Of a DNA stretch of 32,039 nucleotides, positions 1 to 15,691 are shown piece by piece. This DNA comes from a virus. The DNA lies in the IMG/VR virus record IMGVR_UViG_3300044911_002077, positions 1-32,039 of that record; one strand, given 5' to 3'. The first letter of the stretch is position 1. Each line of letters starts with the position of its first letter. The translations under genes were made by a program, and so were the position numbers. A model generated the notes under the pieces. It was not told the origin of the DNA. It made no database searches and saw only the letters and a program-made list of their open reading frames with translations.

Positions 1-1563
1 AGTGCCGGTCGTGGTTGTACCAGTTAATGACGTGAAGCTACCCGTGACAGCAGTTGCAGTTGTGAATTGACCTGCAGTGCCGGTAACAGTGATGCCACTA
101 ATTGTTCCAGTGACACTAAGACCAGAAGCAATAAAGCCGGATCCAAGCGTTGTCGTATTACCAGAAAATGTAAGGTTGCCGCCAAACGTCTGGTTGGTTG
201 CTGTTAGGTTCTGGAAAATACCACTTGTGAAGTTGGCGGTTGTACCAGTGACGGTCGTACCGGAAAGCTGAGTTGTGAATACGCCTGATGCAAAGTTTGC
301 CGTTGTGCCGGTTATGGTCACACCCGTAAGAACAGTAAATGCTCCACTGACGCCAGTGACGGTTGTGAACTGAGCCGTGGTACCGGTTACGGTTGCGCCT
401 GATAACGATGTGGTAAAGACGCCTGTTACGCCGGTCAGTGATGTAAATGCACCACTAACACCTGTGATTGTTTGTCCTGTTAACGATGTAAATGCACCGC
501 TGATGCCAGTAACAGTTGTAAATCGAGCCAGGGTACCTGTTGTAGTTACACCAGTAAGTGACGTAAAGTTCCCTGTGACAGCATTTGCGGTCGTAAATTG
601 TCCCGTATTGCCTGTAACGGTGGTACCAGAAACAGATGTTGTAAATACACCAGTAACACCAGTAAGAGACGTATATTGCCCAACGTTGCCAGTAATCGTG
701 GCACCCGATAACTGTGTTGTATAGACACCGGATACACCTGTTACAGATGTAAAGACTCCCGTTGCACCAGTAATTGTGTTGCCGCTGAGCGTACCAGTGA
801 CATTGACGTTGCCCTGGAAAAGACCTGAGCCAATGAACGTACTAACGCCAGTTACCGTAAGTGTCGACTGGATAATTCCAGTGGCGGCCGTGAGTGTCTG
901 AAAGTTTCCTGTGGTGACGTTAGCGGTAACACCGGTGACAGTTGTCGCTTGAATGGTATTGCCCGTGATTGTGGCACCGGATAACTGAGTTGTGAATACG
1001 CCAGAAACACCGGTGATGTTTGCACCAGAAATTGATTGGCCTGAGACCGTGGTAAATTGACCAACGTTGCCGGTAATTGTCGCACCAGAGAGACTGGTTG
1101 TAAAAACACCGGTCACACCAGTAAGAGACTGATAGTTACCTGTGGTTGCTTGGATGTTATTGCCGGTGATAGTGGCGCCAGATACTCTGTCCGTAAATCG
1201 TCCGGACACAAAGTTTGCCATGGAGCCAGTGAAGGTTGTTCCACTGGTAGTGCCGCTGACATTTAAATTGTTCTGGACGATAACGCCGCTAAATGTTCCA
1301 AGGCCTGAGCTTGTTACTGTGCTCAGGGTTGTTGTACCACTAACGGTTAAACCACCTTGAATTACAACATTGCCACTGATTGTTTCGCCAGTGACGTTTG
1401 CATAGTATTGATCTAGGTAGGTACGGAACTGACTGAAGGTAATTTTTTTGTTGCGCAGTACCGGGTCCACTTCAAAAACGTGGACCAGCGTCATGAGGTC
1501 TTCATCAACAATCGCGGTGCCGTCAATCGACGGAAACTCGCTGATCCTTCTATTGGTGGCCAC
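1..1563 (-). CDS. Tail fibre / virion protein with beta-type repeats, partial
   Basis: The frame is open from a GTG at 1563 to the window edge, so at least 520 residues are present and the C-terminus is missing. The product starts MATNRRISEF and has a short non-repetitive N-terminal part of about 60 residues (ending near FRTYLDQYYANVTGE). The rest is a degenerate Thr/Ser/Gly/Val repeat of units such as GVFTTQLSGATITGN and GQFTTVTGVSGAF, alternating every 13 to 20 residues. Such repeats usually form fibrous beta-structures in phage tail fibres. The N-terminus resembles the baseplate- or tail-anchoring ends of cyanophage fibres (recalled, not searched). An in-frame TAG lies directly before the GTG, so no ATG start is possible upstream; the next in-frame ATG is about 24 codons inside. 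The gene is downstream of the small membrane-protein gene on the same strand. Host recognition is inferred, not shown. Confidence 0.8.
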   Translation of the reverse strand, partial: MATNRRISEFPSIDGTAIVDEDLMTLVHVFEVDPVLRNKKITFSQFRTYLDQYYANVTGETISGNVVIQGGLTVSGTTTLSTVTSSGLGTFSGVIVQNNLNVSGTTSGTTFTGSMANFVSGRFTDRVSGATITGNNIQATTGNYQSLTGVTGVFTTSLSGATITGNVGQFTTVSGQSISGANITGVSGVFTTQLSGATITGNTIQATTVTGVTANVTTGNFQTLTAATGIIQSTLTVTGVSTFIGSGLFQGNVNVTGTLSGNTITGATGVFTSVTGVSGVYTTQLSGATITGNVGQYTSLTGVTGVFTTSVSGTTVTGNTGQFTTANAVTGNFTSLTGVTTTGTLARFTTVTGISGAFTSLTGQTITGVSGAFTSLTGVTGVFTTSLSGATVTGTTAQFTTVTGVSGAFTVLTGVTITGTTANFASGVFTTQLSGTTVTGTTANFTSGIFQNLTATNQTFGGNLTFSGNTTTLGSGFIASGLSVTGTISGITVTGTAGQFTTATAVTGSFTSLTGTTTTGT

Positions 1564-4853: not shown

Positions 4854-5195
4854 ATGCATGGCGTCGCAGGTTTCTTAGATAGCTTCATTCAAGACGAAGT
4901 AAAGTGCCGCTGCCTCAGCGAAGAAGATTTTGGTGCACCGCTCGACAATGAAGCGAATGATGTACCATTAATGGATATGTACAACCGAGGCTTGGTCGCA
5001 TGTCAACAGGGGCGGGAAAGGAATCCACTGAATCTCGAGGGGCAACGGCCTGGAACGACGGGGTATATTCCGTCAATGGAGGAGGGTCTGCAGATGGGGG
5101 CATCACCCAAGCCCAGGGCGTTAGTGCTGGACCTGGAGGGGCCCAGCGAGGAGATGCTGGAGCAGTCACGCAAGCGTCGTGGTTTGAGCCGGTAA
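4854..5195 (+). CDS. Hypothetical protein overlapping the DUF3310 gene
   Basis: The 113-residue product starts MHGVAGFLDSF with AGGG about 9 nt upstream. Its first half (DEVKCRCLSEEDFG, DVPLMDMYNRGLVACQQG) looks like an ordinary soluble protein, and the second half is Pro/Gly/Glu-rich and ends in a basic stretch (EQSRKRRGLSR). Its last 196 nt overlap, in another frame, the first 65 codons of the gene at 5000. Which frame is under protein selection in the overlap cannot be told here. A frameshift fusion of the two products is also possible. I do not recognise the family. Confidence 0.5.
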   Translation: MHGVAGFLDSFIQDEVKCRCLSEEDFGAPLDNEANDVPLMDMYNRGLVACQQGRERNPLNLEGQRPGTTGYIPSMEEGLQMGASPKPRALVLDLEGPSEEMLEQSRKRRGLSR

Positions 5196-5485
5196 CAGAC
5201 GATTCTGGCTGCAAGGACGGCATTTGTCCTGTGCCCTGGCTAACGAAAGAAAAGGCATCGGTGCTCCAGGAGGATGTGGTTAATCATCCTTCTCACTACG
5301 GCGGCATTGAGTGCATTGAAGCCATTGAGACAGCTTTAACCACCGAAGAATTCCGTGGTTTCTGCAAGGCCAACTGCATGAAGTATATCTGGCGTGAGAA
5401 GCATAAAGGCGGGACAGAATCACTGAAGAAGGCACAGTGGTACCTCAACCGCCTTATTGATTTGGACGAAGCTCAAAACGGTTGA
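5000..5485 (+). CDS. DUF3310 protein (T7 gp1.7-like nucleotide kinase family)
   Basis: The last 70 residues carry the DUF3310 signature: VVNHPSHYGGIECIEAIE at about 93 to 110, FCKANCMKYIWREKHKGG at about 121 to 138, and KKAQWYLNRLIDL near the end. T7 gp1.7, a member, phosphorylates dGMP and dTMP; many phage homologues are uncharacterised. The first 65 residues (Gly/Ala/Ser-rich, MSTGAGKESTES onward) overlap another gene and look like a by-product of that frame. No later ATG exists. GTG codons in frame, including one just after AGGAGG at about 5270, could be the true start but the spacing there is too short. The domain is confident; the start is not. Confidence 0.75.
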   Translation: MSTGAGKESTESRGATAWNDGVYSVNGGGSADGGITQAQGVSAGPGGAQRGDAGAVTQASWFEPVTDDSGCKDGICPVPWLTKEKASVLQEDVVNHPSHYGGIECIEAIETALTTEEFRGFCKANCMKYIWREKHKGGTESLKKAQWYLNRLIDLDEAQNG

Positions 5486-5766
5486 AGCTCATCTTCGTCT
5501 TCGTCATCCTCGTCGTCGCCAATACAAGCGGCGGCGAGTTCTGCTAATTCCAAGTCGGTGGGAATGTCGAAGTCAATCGAGATGTTTTCTGCTGCGAGGA
5601 TATCTTTGATGGCATACCACTCCATCAGCCGCTGGTGGTAGAGGTTCAGAAGTGCGTACAGCAATTCATCCCATGTCATCTCTTGCGCTGCAAGTTCTGC
5701 CTTGCGCATGGAGAACTGCAATTCCAACGGGAGTTCAAATTCCCTGGGCTCGACTGATCTCTCCAT
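5473..5766 (-). CDS. nblA: NblA-like phycobilisome degradation adaptor
   Basis: NblA binds phycobiliproteins and the ClpC chaperone, sending phycobilisomes to proteolysis. This 97-residue product aligns without gaps to the NblA core as I remember it: LPLELQFSMRKAE, then AQEMTWDELLYALLNLYHQ, then an IKDIL end. Shared features are the LxLExQF start, the Met-Ser/Thr turn, the LxxLYxQ helix and the closing basic-acidic-hydrophobic end. NblA proteins are about 55 to 65 residues; this one has a C-terminal extension (about 45 residues) ending in a run of Asp/Glu. I use the ATG at 5766, which has AAGG 5 nt upstream; ATG 5778 is an alternative. A TAGAATAA element lies upstream. The stop overlaps the convergent DUF3310 stop by 13 nt. 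It implies a phycobilisome-bearing cyanobacterial host. Confidence 0.75.
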   Translation of the reverse strand: MERSVEPREFELPLELQFSMRKAELAAQEMTWDELLYALLNLYHQRLMEWYAIKDILAAENISIDFDIPTDLELAELAAACIGDDEDDEDEDELQPF

Positions 5767-5791
5767 TCCAGCCTTCATTTGCGTGTTGCAA

Positions 5792-5800
5792 TTATTCTAA
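5792..5800 (-). promoter_or_regulatory. TTAGAATAA element upstream of nblA-like gene
   Basis: The minus strand reads TTAGAATAA 25 nt before the ATG at 5766. TAGAAT is one base from the TATAAT -10 consensus. The same 8 to 9 bases recur before three other minus-strand genes (10050, 28035, 28510). With a -10 here, transcription would start near 5787, which suits the 5766 start. Confidence 0.4.
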
Positions 5801-5802
5801 TG

Positions 5803-6462
5803 CTAGCTGGCGGACAGAAGATCTGCTTCTTGGTCGTTAAAATCAAACCAAGGGTTTTCATCAATCCGGAAGTTGTTTCCAAACTCTGCCAGGATGTATG
5901 GACTCATGAGTTCTTCCAAGCGTCGCACTGCTTTCACCTGATGAGGTGCTGCGGTGTAATTGCGGAATGCTGTCAACAATACTTCGGTAGAGGCCCAGGG
6001 ATTTGCATCAACTCCTTGGAGGAACAGGTTGATTTCTTCTCGGCGTCGATCCAGGAGATTACCAACGACTTGATGATCAGCATTGAAGATCCACCGGCCC
6101 ATTTCTCGCGTGGCACCGCAGTAATCTTCGTGTTCAATGCAATCGATAATGGCGCTGTAAAGGAAGGGTTCCCAGCCGATGGAGTGAATGAAAGAAATCA
6201 AGGCTTGACGCATGCCGTCATCAAGGCCCAGGTTTTGCTTTAGCAGCTGGGTGTCAATGATATTTGTTTCGTGGAATAACAGCTCCAGTGCTTTTTGTGG
6301 ACTGCAACGTTGACCACGTTTGACAGGAGAGCCGTCAGGGTAAAACTGTGTGCCGTAACCAATGGTGTACGGATCTTTCCCTGTGTGAGGATCTGCGAAA
6401 GCTTGTTCGTTAAAACCTTCGTATTTCCTGATCAGATTAAGCGCAGCGGAAAGATCCGACAT
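5803..6462 (-). CDS. Lysozyme, T4-type glycoside hydrolase family 24 (endolysin)
   Basis: It hydrolyses the glycan strands of peptidoglycan and is the probable endolysin. From the ATG at 6462 the protein has 219 residues. The T4-lysozyme triad is visible: E15 in IRKYEGF, D24 in ADPHTG and T33 in PYTIGYGT. The later GH24 motif GNLLDRRREEINLF follows at about residues 144 to 157. It is longer than T4 lysozyme (164), with about 60 extra C-terminal residues. No signal peptide or SAR-type anchor is seen at the N-terminus, so a holin would be needed. A TTG at 6486 is a possible alternative start. A perfect hairpin sits between the GGAG and the ATG (6464-6483). It is downstream of small basic-protein genes on the same strand and next to the nblA-like gene. 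Confidence 0.88.
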   Translation of the reverse strand: MSDLSAALNLIRKYEGFNEQAFADPHTGKDPYTIGYGTQFYPDGSPVKRGQRCSPQKALELLFHETNIIDTQLLKQNLGLDDGMRQALISFIHSIGWEPFLYSAIIDCIEHEDYCGATREMGRWIFNADHQVVGNLLDRRREEINLFLQGVDANPWASTEVLLTAFRNYTAAPHQVKAVRRLEELMSPYILAEFGNNFRIDENPWFDFNDQEADLLSAS

Positions 6463-6463
6463 A

Positions 6464-6483
6464 GGAGTAACATTAGTTACTCC
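6464..6483 (-). promoter_or_regulatory. Hairpin directly before lysozyme start
   Basis: On the minus strand GGAGTAAC, loop TAAT, GTTACTCC forms a perfect 8-bp stem with a 4-nt loop, ending 1 nt before the ATG. The GGAG that would be the Shine-Dalgarno is in the 5' arm and would be hidden when folded. Start-site hairpins are known to delay T4 lysozyme (gene e) translation from early transcripts; a similar role here is inferred. Confidence 0.55.
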
Positions 6484-6497
6484 CAATCATACACAAT

Positions 6498-6623
6498 TTA
6501 CTTACCTTGGCCGCGTGTTTGTTTGCGTCCGTGATTAGGAAGTGAGTGTTGCCCTTGTCCTTGACGAGTCTTTTTAGGGCGGGATTCAATCTTGACGACT
6601 GAGCTGGACTTGGGTTTGGCCAT
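6498..6623 (-). CDS. Small basic protein, 41 residues
   Basis: The product begins MAKPKSSSVVKIESRPKKTR and ends QTRGQGK, with Lys/Arg/Gln/Gly making up most of it. It begins at an ATG at 6623. Its sequence resembles small basic proteins I recall in cyanophages, so I believe it is real although short. The charge suggests nucleic-acid binding; no function is known to me. It lies between the 99-residue basic protein and the lysozyme. Confidence 0.6.
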   Translation of the reverse strand: MAKPKSSSVVKIESRPKKTRQGQGQHSLPNHGRKQTRGQGK

Positions 6624-6641
6624 GGGAAACCAATGTGGTGC

Positions 6642-6941
6642 TCACCATTTTACACGGTGGCTCCAGTAGCGTGCTGACATTTTGTCGGGACTTGAATCTT
6701 GCGCATTGTGACGTGCGTAATAAGACCTGCGACGGGCCTTGTCTTTTTCTGAAGTTGGGTTTTTACCTGCGCCTTCAACTCCTTGCTGTCCAAACCTGAT
6801 AATTTTTTCTTCACCGTCTTTACATGCTTTTACAACATGCGATTTTGTGGCATGACCTGGAGTGCGCTGCGGTTTGTTGCAGGCCATCTTATCTTTTGCC
6901 AACTTGGCAGCACCAGCGGCTTTCTTACGTTTGTCAGACAT
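6642..6941 (-). CDS. Conserved phage protein of unknown function (RFGQQG family)
   Basis: The 99-residue product has a basic N-terminus (MSDKRKKAAGAAKLAKDKM) and a conserved-looking body: KSHVVKACKDGEEKIIRFGQQG at about 34 to 55, then RRRSYYARH, then MSARYWSHRVKW at the end. I recall this pattern (RFGQQG..., ARH..., YW..KVKW) in phages of cyanobacteria and other marine bacteria, without a known role. Its ATG overlaps the stop of the 905-residue gene by 1 nt (TGATG), so the two are coupled. A virion or assembly role is suggested only by that coupling. Confidence 0.7.
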   Translation of the reverse strand: MSDKRKKAAGAAKLAKDKMACNKPQRTPGHATKSHVVKACKDGEEKIIRFGQQGVEGAGKNPTSEKDKARRRSYYARHNAQDSSPDKMSARYWSHRVKW

Positions 6942-10387: not shown

Positions 10388-10621
10388 TCAGTCTTCGGGC
10401 AGTATGCCTTCTGCGTATGCTGCCCAAGCAAGACCAAGTGATTCCATGGAGGATAGTTCATTTGCCTCGTAGGGCAAGTTGACTACATCTCCAGTTTTGT
10501 AAACAGTAGGAGATCCGTCGTAATAAACGGAGCTGAATCCATATTGACGGCGTGTGAGTTGTTCTTCACTTGGAGCTTTAGTGGAGTCAACAACATCGCC
10601 AAAGCCTGGTGTGTTGGTCAT
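10388..10621 (-). CDS. Hypothetical protein, 77 residues
   Basis: The product MTNTPGFGDVVDSTKAPSEE... is small, acidic, and has a beta-looking middle (FSSVYYDGSPTVYKTGDVVNLPYEANEL) and a helical end (MESLGLAWAAYAEGILPED). I do not recognise a family. Its ATG overlaps the stop of the glycosyltransferase gene (ATGA), which supports it as a coupled real gene. Confidence 0.55.
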   Translation of the reverse strand: MTNTPGFGDVVDSTKAPSEEQLTRRQYGFSSVYYDGSPTVYKTGDVVNLPYEANELSSMESLGLAWAAYAEGILPED

Positions 10622-12237
10622 GGCTTACGAAACACCAAAAGGTTTTGAAGGAACCAACCCATATGATAACCCTTCTCAATAAAGGAAATTAACTGGGCTT
10701 CAATTACCCAGTCATGAATCAAACCTGTATCTTCAAGTAGCAGTTTCCAATAGTCTTTGGTTTGACAGTTAATGTGACCAACGCCACCTTGGCCTGGTTT
10801 AGCGGCGGTCCAAATTAACACGCCGCCAGGTTCCAGTGCTTGATGCATTGTGTCAACAATCCGCTGATTCTCAGACCCATCAATGTGCTCTGCCACTTCC
10901 ATGCATAAGACGACAGGTGCAGAATGCTCAAGATCAAAAAGACTCTTGCAAAGAAGGCGATCTTGATTCTCGACACGCAAATCAGTGTCATAACCAATGC
11001 AATCAATTCCAAGGTCAGTAAAGCAATCAACATAAGTACCTGGCCCGCAACCAAGATCTAGTACATGTGTGGGATGAAGATTCTCCCCAATCCAACTTGT
11101 GAGTCGCTTTGCGAATGGACGTTCTTCGGCATCGAGGTGATTGTAGTCAATCCTGGACGGCTCTCGTAACTGATACCAACCCGCGTGGTGAAGAGCATCG
11201 ATTGTTTTAAAGATCTTGTCATATTTTGCTCCACAGGCTTCCAGGCTGTAACGAGACCTGGCAGTGGCGGCAACTACCTGACGGTCGAGATCTCCTGCTG
11301 CGTGGATGGCGTCAATCCAATCTTGGAGAGTATGGCAGCGAAAACCTGTGCAACCTTCGATAATGGTTTCAGTAAAGGCTCCGTAATCAACTGCAATTAA
11401 CGGAGTGCCGCACAACATTGCTTCTACGCCACTGCCGCCGAATGGCTCAGTGAAATTAGTTGGCATCAAAGCTGCACGTGCTTTACCTAAGAAATCAGAC
11501 CGCTCACGACCTACCAACGGACCGCCGTACTTAATGTTCGGATGGCTCCAGGGGGTTGGATCACCTTGACCGTGGATGACAATTGGCCATGGACTGTGGC
11601 TTGCCAATTCCTTAATGGTGTCCATCCCTTTGACTGAACAGATGCGTCCAAGGAATGCAAGATATTCTCCGTCTTCGTAACAAGGATCCCAATCAGACAA
11701 TTCAAAGTAATTGGGCACAACCCATTCGTAGTTTTTGCCTTGCCTTTTTTCTTGTCCCTGGTGGTAATGCATCCAGGCGTACGACTCGAAGATCCGAAAA
11801 CTGTTCGGCATCAAAGTCGGATACCCAATCCCCGTTTCTACATGGTGATGAGTGGGGAACTTCTCCATGAGAATTTGATGGGCGTGCCCGAAGGGATGAC
11901 AAATAATGTCACGTGGCTCCAGGCGTTTACGCATCTCGACAATTAAACGTTCTTCAAATGCTTGATGCCCTTCGCTGCCAATGGTTGCATCGTTGCCATG
12001 GAAGTCGGTTTTCTTCCGATCACCGTAAAACTTCTTGAATTCTTTCTCGGTCAGGATTGGTACGTGCTCTGTTGCGCCAGCTTCACTTCCTTCGTTGCTG
12101 TACTCAATCACGTCATAGCCATACGCCTGCATCATCTTGGGAAAACGCAAAGCCTTACCAGTAAATGCACAGTGAGAGTATTGACTGGTTGCCTGTGTGT
12201 GAAAGATCCCAATCAGATGCAGGCGAGGTTTTGCCAT
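10618..12237 (-). CDS. Fused glycosyltransferase and SAM-dependent methyltransferase
   Basis: The 539-residue product has two enzymatic parts. Residues 1 to about 345 are a GT-B glycosyltransferase (family 4-like): YLAFLGRICSVKGMDTIKEL at about 192 to 211, a central HGQGDPTP, then EPFGGSGVEAMLCGTPLIAV with the EX7E pair E264 and E272. Residues about 390 to 539 are a class I methyltransferase: VLDLGCGPG at 392-400 binds SAM, and CMEVAEHID follows at motif III/IV position. ATG 12237 is preferred over an upstream TTG. The gene lies next to the polyglycine and collagen-like fibre genes. It may glycosylate and methylate a cell-surface or virion component; the substrate is unknown. A joint activity is inferred from fusion only. 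Confidence 0.82.
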   Translation of the reverse strand: MAKPRLHLIGIFHTQATSQYSHCAFTGKALRFPKMMQAYGYDVIEYSNEGSEAGATEHVPILTEKEFKKFYGDRKKTDFHGNDATIGSEGHQAFEERLIVEMRKRLEPRDIICHPFGHAHQILMEKFPTHHHVETGIGYPTLMPNSFRIFESYAWMHYHQGQEKRQGKNYEWVVPNYFELSDWDPCYEDGEYLAFLGRICSVKGMDTIKELASHSPWPIVIHGQGDPTPWSHPNIKYGGPLVGRERSDFLGKARAALMPTNFTEPFGGSGVEAMLCGTPLIAVDYGAFTETIIEGCTGFRCHTLQDWIDAIHAAGDLDRQVVAATARSRYSLEACGAKYDKIFKTIDALHHAGWYQLREPSRIDYNHLDAEERPFAKRLTSWIGENLHPTHVLDLGCGPGTYVDCFTDLGIDCIGYDTDLRVENQDRLLCKSLFDLEHSAPVVLCMEVAEHIDGSENQRIVDTMHQALEPGGVLIWTAAKPGQGGVGHINCQTKDYWKLLLEDTGLIHDWVIEAQLISFIEKGYHMGWFLQNLLVFRKP

Positions 12238-12281
12238 TGTCAACAAACACTATGACGGTGAAGGAACCAATTGTATCCCGT

Positions 12282-13690: not shown

Positions 13691-15691
13691 TTAGGGCATT
13701 GCTGCGCCGTAGTGAATAGCAAGAATATCACCGTATTTTGTTGCGCCTGCAGGGCCAGTAGCCCCTGTTGCACCTGATACACCTATTACACCAGTAGCTC
13801 CTGTAATGCCTATCACTCCTGTGGCACCTGTAACACCAGTGGGGCCAGCAACGCCCGTGGCACCGGTAGTACCTTGAACACCTGTCGCCCCTGTAATTCC
13901 AACAACTCCTGTGGCACCTGTTATTCCTACACCTGTTGCACCTGTTGGTCCGGTGATTCCCACACCAGTGGCACCTGTTGGTCCCGTGATTCCAGTGGCA
14001 CCTGTTACGCCCTGAACACCTGTGGCACCGGTGATTCCAATAACACCCGTCGCACCTTGTACGCCAGTTGCGCCGGTAACACCTGTTACACCTGTAGCAC
14101 CTGCAACGCCTGTAGCACCTTGAACACCTGTTGCTCCCGTAGTTCCAGCAACTCCTGTAGCGCCGGTTATTCCTACACCTGTGGCACCAGTTGGCCCGGT
14201 GGCACCTTGTGGTCCGCTAACCAACGCTAAGAATACAGCTAGGTTATTCGCAAAGTTTGTCGAGCCCGTACCACCGGATGCAACTAAAGTTGCTGGATAT
14301 GTCCAGTAGCTGGTTGACGTGCCAGGATTAACGTTCGTTGGGGTGCCGTTAACTTTCCATGTTTGGTAATTAGAACTGGAGCCTTGGTCCTGGATTGTAA
14401 TAATTTCTGTATTGAAAACTTGCGCAAGAAAGATATCGATATCAATCGCATCGCTTGTTAAATGGCTAACGTTGATTTGCGTTGCACTTGCTTGTGTTGC
14501 GTTGTTCCAAATTACAAAACCTGCGCCTGGATCTCCGCTTGTAATTGTTGTCTTTGCGGAATACTTAAAGAGGCTGGAAGAAAAACCTTGTGGGCCAGTC
14601 GCACCAGTGGGACCTGCAACACCAGTAGCGCCAACACCCGTGGCACCTTGTACGCCTGTAGCGCCAGTGGAACCCTGCACACCCGTAGCACCAGTGGCTC
14701 CTGTAACGCCCTGTATGCCGGTTGCACCTGTGATACCAACAACGCCTGTGGCACCTTGCACGCCAGTGGCACCTGTGGCTCCTGTAGCGCCTTGCGTACC
14801 AGTGGCACCGGTAACTCCTGCGACACCGGTAGCACCCGTGGGACCAGTTATGCCCTGAACTCCGGTAGCACCTGTGACACCGGTAGGACCCGCAATGCCT
14901 GTTGCGCCCGTTACTCCAGTAACTCCTTGGATACCAGTGGGACCTTGTATGCCAGTGGCACCTGTTGGACCGGTAATACCTTGAACACCAGTGGCACCAG
15001 TAGGGCCGTCAATACCTGTGGCACCGGTGGGACCAGTGGGTCCATCTACGCCTGTTACACCTTGAATACCCGTGGCACCTGTGATACCAATGGGGCCTGT
15101 AGCGCCGGTAACTCCAGTGACACCTGTAGGACCAGCTACGCCTGTAGGACCGGTAATACCTTGAATACCAGTTGCGCCTTGTGGACCAGTGACGCCTTGT
15201 ATGCCGCTCGCACCTGTAGGGCCACTTGGACCTGTGGGGCCTGTAGTACCAGAGGGACCAGTAGGGCCGGTGGGGCCGCCACTAGGGCCAGTGGGACCTG
15301 TCGGGCCAATCATTGTATAGACCTTCGCCAGACCGGCGGAATCGTATACAACCCAATCTGCGTTCTCATTGAGGACCACAGATTCGCCAGCGAGAAGCAA
15401 ACCGGTCCACACCGTGGTTGTTAGTGCACCATCAGTGTGATTGATGGTAATACTGTTGCTTAAAGTTGGATCATCATTCTTGATAAAACAGGTTCTTAAG
15501 TTGCGCTGAATAGTAGAGGTTGTGGGACCAGTGACAATTGTAGTTGTTGTGGCAGTTGTGATATTGGTGTCAAGTCTACCGGCGGACACATTACCGCTGT
15601 TGTTATCTGCAAACGCAGCATGAACTTCAACATTCGTTGCCGCCGAAGTAACAATACGAACAGCATCCGACGTGGAAGTCAGCAGTAACAT
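13691..15691 (-). CDS. Collagen-like tail fibre protein
   Basis: The 666-residue product has an N-terminal beta-type head (residues 1 to about 128, [14 protein letters not shown] to VYTMIG). A first G-X-Y repeat follows at about 129 to 365, with [10 protein letters not shown] and GATGVQG-type triplets. A non-collagen domain at about 366 to 490 follows ([18 protein letters not shown]..., containing the segment [14 protein letters not shown]), then a second collagen stretch, then a short tip [18 protein letters not shown]. Collagen-like rods are common in phage and bacterial surface fibres, giving length and trimerisation. Thr is common at X and Y positions, and few Pro are seen at Y. The repeats are near-identical in DNA and could recombine. 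ATG at 15691 follows GTAGG. Confidence 0.85.

Follow-up and report, generated by a model that had tools for sequence, protein, structure and literature searches.

The minus-strand gene at positions 5473 to 5766 of the window, the whole stretch of 32,039 nucleotides analysed here, joins an NblA-type core to a C-terminal tail with an SSB-like end. By sequence comparison the first 64 residues of its product are a true homologue of cyanobacterial NblA, and the tail, in its sequence and its predicted structure, has the layout of the SSB C-terminal tip: a terminal Phe, a penultimate Pro and an acidic disordered linker. The gene belongs, on the evidence of its sequence relatives, to the Synechococcus phage S-EIV1 lineage. 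We lean, tentatively, towards a predicted role as a small NblA-derived adaptor of S-EIV1-like cyanophages that carries an SSB-tip-like docking peptide.

The NblA-like ORF is a real gene. Its full open frame is 5473-5778 (minus strand, 101 residues), and 5473-5766 is the same frame read from the internal Met5. All 40 distinct homologues keep Met5, while 8 lack the upstream Met, making a 97-residue product likelier than one of 101; the four residues from the upstream ATG (5767..5778, minus strand) are an optional N-terminal extension that is not conserved. The ORF described in the earlier note is thereby confirmed, and its start, at Met5, proves to be the better one. Residue numbers below run on the 101-residue form, in which the 97-residue start is Met5 and the tail is residues 87-101. 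A gene for a DUF3310 protein with the PHROG label 'nucleotide kinase' (5000-5485, plus strand) converges on the NblA-like gene and overlaps its end by 13 bases.

The NblA-homologous core, 54 gapless columns, spans residues 11-64 (5587..5748, minus strand, as are all the following segments). Within it lie helix 1 and the turn (residues 18-36; 5671..5727), with the NblA motif residues L18, E19, Q21 and F22 kept, and helix 2 (residues 36-63; 5590..5673), whose positions 53, 54 and 62 are unlike those of host NblA. A third predicted helix (residues 75-86; 5521..5556) falls within the conserved segment PTDLELAELAAAC, and the disordered acidic tail with its invariant Pro-Phe end occupies residues 87-101 (5476..5520). 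An acidic extension of about 45 residues had been proposed: the extension is there, its acidity confined to the last 15 or so residues, residues 64-86 being conserved and including the third predicted helix.

Homology of the core to NblA is best seen at the level of profiles. Pfam NblA (PF04485) matches residues 15-61 of the window protein at 20.1 bits (E 9e-4), so that the Pfam search suggested in the earlier note did yield a match, while the gathering score of 25 bits was not reached. Some relatives pass that cut-off in a six-frame search (G005, 25.6; G300, 26.4; G301, 25.6), and all 29 members of a diverse family alignment match the model, with a best E of 1.1e-5. Aligned by hhalign to 54 distinct host NblAs, the phage family gives 54 gapless columns with a score of 50.7 and a probability of 96.5; permuting the phage columns gave a mean of 10.9 (sd 2.3, maximum 20.5, n=200) and reversing the alignment 10.0, which places the gapless core alignment of the earlier note above chance. 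A search of the PDB with the family profile returned Anabaena NblA (1ojh) as its sole significant sequence (E 2.6e-4). In the reverse direction the phage profile found 15 matches in 14 of 292 cyanobacterial-phylum genomes, each of the 15 coinciding with a known NblA locus. Three PF04485 matches in cyanobacterial-phylum genomes of 2.8-3.1 Mb (L313, L314 and L315, in G154, G190 and G275) contain several internal TAG/TAA codons, and may be nblA pseudogenes or a reading artefact.

By way of calibration, the NblAs of phages Ma-LMM01 and PaV-LD score 52 and 45 bits with PF04485, and the model finds no match anywhere in the S-SCSM1 and S-TIM5 genomes, both from phages with NblAs that the literature accepts (PMC9602691). 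Anabaena NblA used as a tblastn query found no phage record, though the collection searched includes Ma-LMM01 and PaV-LD; plain sequence search therefore cannot tell which phages have NblA. In tblastn a Microviridae record from elk feces also matched, at 36% over 55 residues (E 0.01); the hit falls within a larger annotated stretch of a genome of 6 kb, with no lysozyme neighbour, and was put down to chance. Yeast HRD1 turned up weakly in the PDB through matches that track the acidic run, and these were set aside too.

AlphaFold2 predicts helices at residues 18-32 and 36-63 joined near M34-T35, a third helix at 75-86 and then a disordered tail, with a pLDDT of 92 for the core alone and about 42 for the acidic tail. 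The core is thus predicted to fold as an NblA-type two-helix hairpin, a likeness of shape only, and the structure prediction proposed in the earlier note came out as expected there; a profile match and a hairpin were both obtained, where the lack of both had been named as grounds for giving up NblA. Foldseek against the PDB found nothing significant (best E 6.6 with the whole model, no match with the core), an outcome that speaks neither for nor against NblA, a hairpin of two helices being too simple a fold to be informative. The SSB family PF00436 has no match in the window protein, whose prediction is all-helical with no OB fold, and neither the predicted structure nor the sequence contains a membrane segment or signal-like stretch.

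The window, an IMG/VR virus record, shares about 94-98% DNA identity with an 85-kb record (G003) along most of its length, and the sole clear match to the protein among 50,697 phage records is AHV82245.1 of Synechococcus phage S-EIV1 (65% identity), annotated as a hypothetical protein, encoded directly after lysozyme and ending in KELAPF. Relatives abound in IMG/VR: at least 545 stretches encode one in a single scan, and two scans gave hundreds; we read 166 relative loci, which reduce to 85 distinct nucleotide ORFs. The host of S-EIV1 is Synechococcus sp. PCCC-A2c, which supports the Synechococcus host suggested earlier and, by way of this relative, lets us infer by analogy a phycobilisome-bearing host for the window virus. 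The photosynthesis genes listed for the S-EIV1 group are hli and ptoX only, with no nblA (Table 2, PMC5332604). An 89-kb prophage most similar to S-EIV1 has been reported in the genetically tractable strain S. elongatus UTEX 3055 (PMC9239245); the NblA-like gene had no match in two genomes from the genus of an S. elongatus-like genome, a pair not known to include UTEX 3055.

The adjoining upstream gene (5803..6486, minus strand) is a lysozyme, as the earlier note had it, matching an endolysin PHROG and Pfam Phage_lysozyme (57 bits); it has the same orientation, with 24 nt between it and the 101-residue start of the NblA-like gene. The arrangement is conserved, a lysozyme being found just upstream on the same strand in 81 of 81 loci checked (L002-L082), at 27-113 nt as measured by alignment ends. 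The NblA-like protein is probably made late, together with the lysozyme. A scan for promoter-like sites found none in 5300-6900, a region where shuffled sequence averages 1.5, making the scan uninformative. Elsewhere in the window, an ORF running off the left end (1-1563, minus strand) consists of low-complexity Thr/Gly/Val-rich repeats (SGATITGN, TGVTGVFTT), and another encodes a 666-residue, low-complexity collagen-like Gly-X-Y protein (13691-15691, minus strand); both have the look of tail-fibre or adhesin proteins. In a 542-residue ORF (10618-12246, minus strand) the N-terminal part resembles a glycosyltransferase and the C-terminal part a UbiG-like methyltransferase, on weak NCBIfam matches.

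The extension is built in three parts, the conserved segment followed by an acidic run that varies in sequence and length and then by Pro-Phe. All 85 distinct ORFs end in -PF, through seven synonymous codon pairs, and have 6-10 acidic residues at positions -16 to -5. A drifting acidic stretch with a fixed two-residue end looks like the result of selection on a docking peptide. This tip, common to the phage's own SSB, did not figure in the earlier description of the extension. The best-known bacterial peptide of acidic -PF layout is the SSB C-terminal tip (DFDDDIPF in E. coli). In SSB partners the terminal Phe is buried, its carboxylate held by a basic lip and the acidic residues by a basic ridge (PMC10164576; see PMC4118853); binding is lost without the terminal Phe and is much reduced by the Pro-to-Ser change of ssb-113 (PMC10164576).

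The phages' own SSBs have the same end: 10 of 10 from S-EIV1-like phages finish in -PF (LEEVPF, NLDEIPF, NDEVPF, DDDNAPF, MTDEPF and others), that of S-EIV1 itself scoring above the Pfam SSB cut-off, and cyanobacterial SSBs end in NLDEVPF, SLDEVPF, DEIPF or DDIPF. Two of the 128 annotated S-EIV1 proteins read have a -PF end, the SSB and the NblA-like protein, and five relatives (136-204 ORFs each) have no acidic -PF proteins other than this pair; one of the five has in addition a -PF ORF that is not acidic. No ORF ends in -PF among 222 in 200 kb of one host genome, and the acidic -PF tail is absent from all 54 distinct host NblAs and from the NblAs of Ma-LMM01, PaV-LD and S-SCSM1. Position -3 of the NblA-like tail is mostly Gln, with some Leu, Ile or Ala; in these phages' own SSBs it is V, A, I, P or E, and in cellular SSBs Ile or Val.

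Helix 2 departs from host NblA at charged positions. Residue 53 is R/K in 52 of 54 hosts as against E in all 40 lineage homologues, residue 54 is E/D in 50 of 54 hosts as against W in all 40, and residue 62, K/R in 49 of 54 hosts, is mostly A/E and never K/R in the lineage. In the alignment with 1ojh, residue 62 falls opposite Lys53 of Anabaena NblA, which is reportedly needed for phycobilisome binding. These changes speak against phycobilisome binding in the canonical manner; the N-terminal NblA motif (L16, L18, E19, Q21, F22) is kept in the lineage, which argues for some retained NblA-type function. Degradation of antennae during infection, as supposed in the earlier note, goes a step beyond the homology itself, the distal helix-2 charges kept by nearly all hosts being replaced in every lineage homologue; judged from sequence it is possible, though no better supported than retargeting. 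One relative, G004 (IMGVR_UViG_3300042503_000838, 125.8 kb), has a second, short NblA of 84 residues (L345:16532-16786, minus strand). It is canonical-looking, scores 30.8 bits, above the Pfam cut-off, lacks the acidic tail, and sits at another place in the genome, where it overlaps an HNH-endonuclease-like ORF at that ORF's end. Such a separate, canonical-looking NblA would be expected if the canonical job were not done by the tailed protein; it was seen in this one lineage record only.

If the protein is an adaptor of the kind we tentatively propose, its hairpin would dimerise and still contact ClpC, as NblA does; NblA is known to reach ClpC (PMC7966870). The acidic -PF tip would dock in the SSB-tip-reading pocket of a phage or host replication or repair protein, and late in infection the adaptor might then tether the docked protein to Clp or just keep it sequestered, which could replace, or add to, action on phycobilisomes. 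Several points stand against SSB-tip docking: Gln prevails at position -3, which in cellular SSBs is Ile or Val, a target other than an SSB-type pocket is conceivable for an acidic tail with a hydrophobic end, and the gene sits in a late/lysis module, not among replication genes. Retargeting, for its part, has against it the kept N-terminal motif, which fits continued NblA-type function. The more specific reading, that an SSB-tip mimic captures SSB-interacting repair and replication proteins of host or phage and the NblA hairpin hands them to ClpC for removal, we think unlikely; were it true, the virus would be using the cell's antenna-recycling route to remove DNA-metabolism factors.

The main competing account, plausible though we hold it doubtful, is that of an ordinary phage NblA: its hairpin would bind phycobiliproteins and ClpC so that antennae are broken down faster, with no role for the tail beyond tuning solubility or regulation. 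The clear NblA homology with its intact N-terminal motif, the Synechococcus host of S-EIV1, and the functionality elsewhere of phage NblAs of low similarity (PMC9602691) all fit it; replacement of host-conserved helix-2 charges in all homologues, an invariant -PF end on an otherwise drifting tail and the separate NblA of G004 do not. The tail might instead have nothing to do with SSB partners, being a handle for Clp or another protease, or an autoinhibitory tail folding onto the hairpin. Acidic tails are indeed often autoinhibitory. As to a protease handle, NblA itself is reported to be co-degraded by Clp (Baier 2014, as cited in PMC7966870). We nevertheless regard either form as improbable, since the tip coincides with the way in which phage and host SSBs end, and these genomes contain no other acidic protein end like it.

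Its constant place beside lysozyme, across a gap of 24 nt in the window, might also mark the protein as part of the lysis module, a regulator of lysozyme release for example, its NblA ancestry being incidental. Phage late-operon neighbours need not share a function, the absence of a membrane segment or signal-like stretch is against such a role and the SSB-like tip would be left unexplained, making it very unlikely in our estimation. Least credible of all is a convergent helical hairpin with no NblA homology: a single-sequence Pfam score below cut-off and the failure of Foldseek to find an NblA structure could be taken that way, but the permutation test, the reverse genome search and the PDB profile search each point specifically to NblA.

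The S-EIV1 lineage is widespread, and if the protein still bleaches cells, nblA would be among the core genes of a cyanophage lineage that is common, and would have been missed there because it falls under the Pfam cut-off. Should the tip dock in the place used by SSB, the SSB recognition code would occur naturally on an unrelated protein, connecting antenna proteolysis to DNA metabolism. In the literature searched, the S-EIV1 genome paper being outside its scope, none calls the gene NblA, and priority for the assignment is not established; the same search found no NblA with an SSB-like end.

Phage NblAs are already known from Ma-LMM01, MaMV-DC, PaV-LD, S-TIM5, S-SCSM1 and uncultured marine phages (PMC9602691). 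With cyanobacterial NblA (PF04485; PDB 1ojh, Anabaena) the lineage protein shares the gapless 54-column core, the L-x-L-E-x-Q-F start, the M-T/S turn and the helical hairpin; unlike it, the lineage protein is about 97 residues long instead of about 60, carries E at position 53, W at 54 and mostly A/E at 62 in place of R/K, E/D and K/R, and adds an extra helix and the acidic -PF tail. The Ma-LMM01 and PaV-LD proteins are likewise phage-borne NblA homologues but are short, with host-type charges at 53, 54 and 62 and no acidic -PF tail, and that of S-SCSM1 (QFG06501.1; assigned by HHpred, PMC9602691), also phage-borne and a distant NblA, has 54 residues and no tail. What the lineage protein shares with the SSB C-terminal tip (E. 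coli DFDDDIPF, picocyanobacterial NLDEVPF, phage SSB LEEVPF) is a disordered acidic stretch ending in Pro-Phe, set on an NblA-type hairpin instead of an OB fold and with mostly Gln at position -3.
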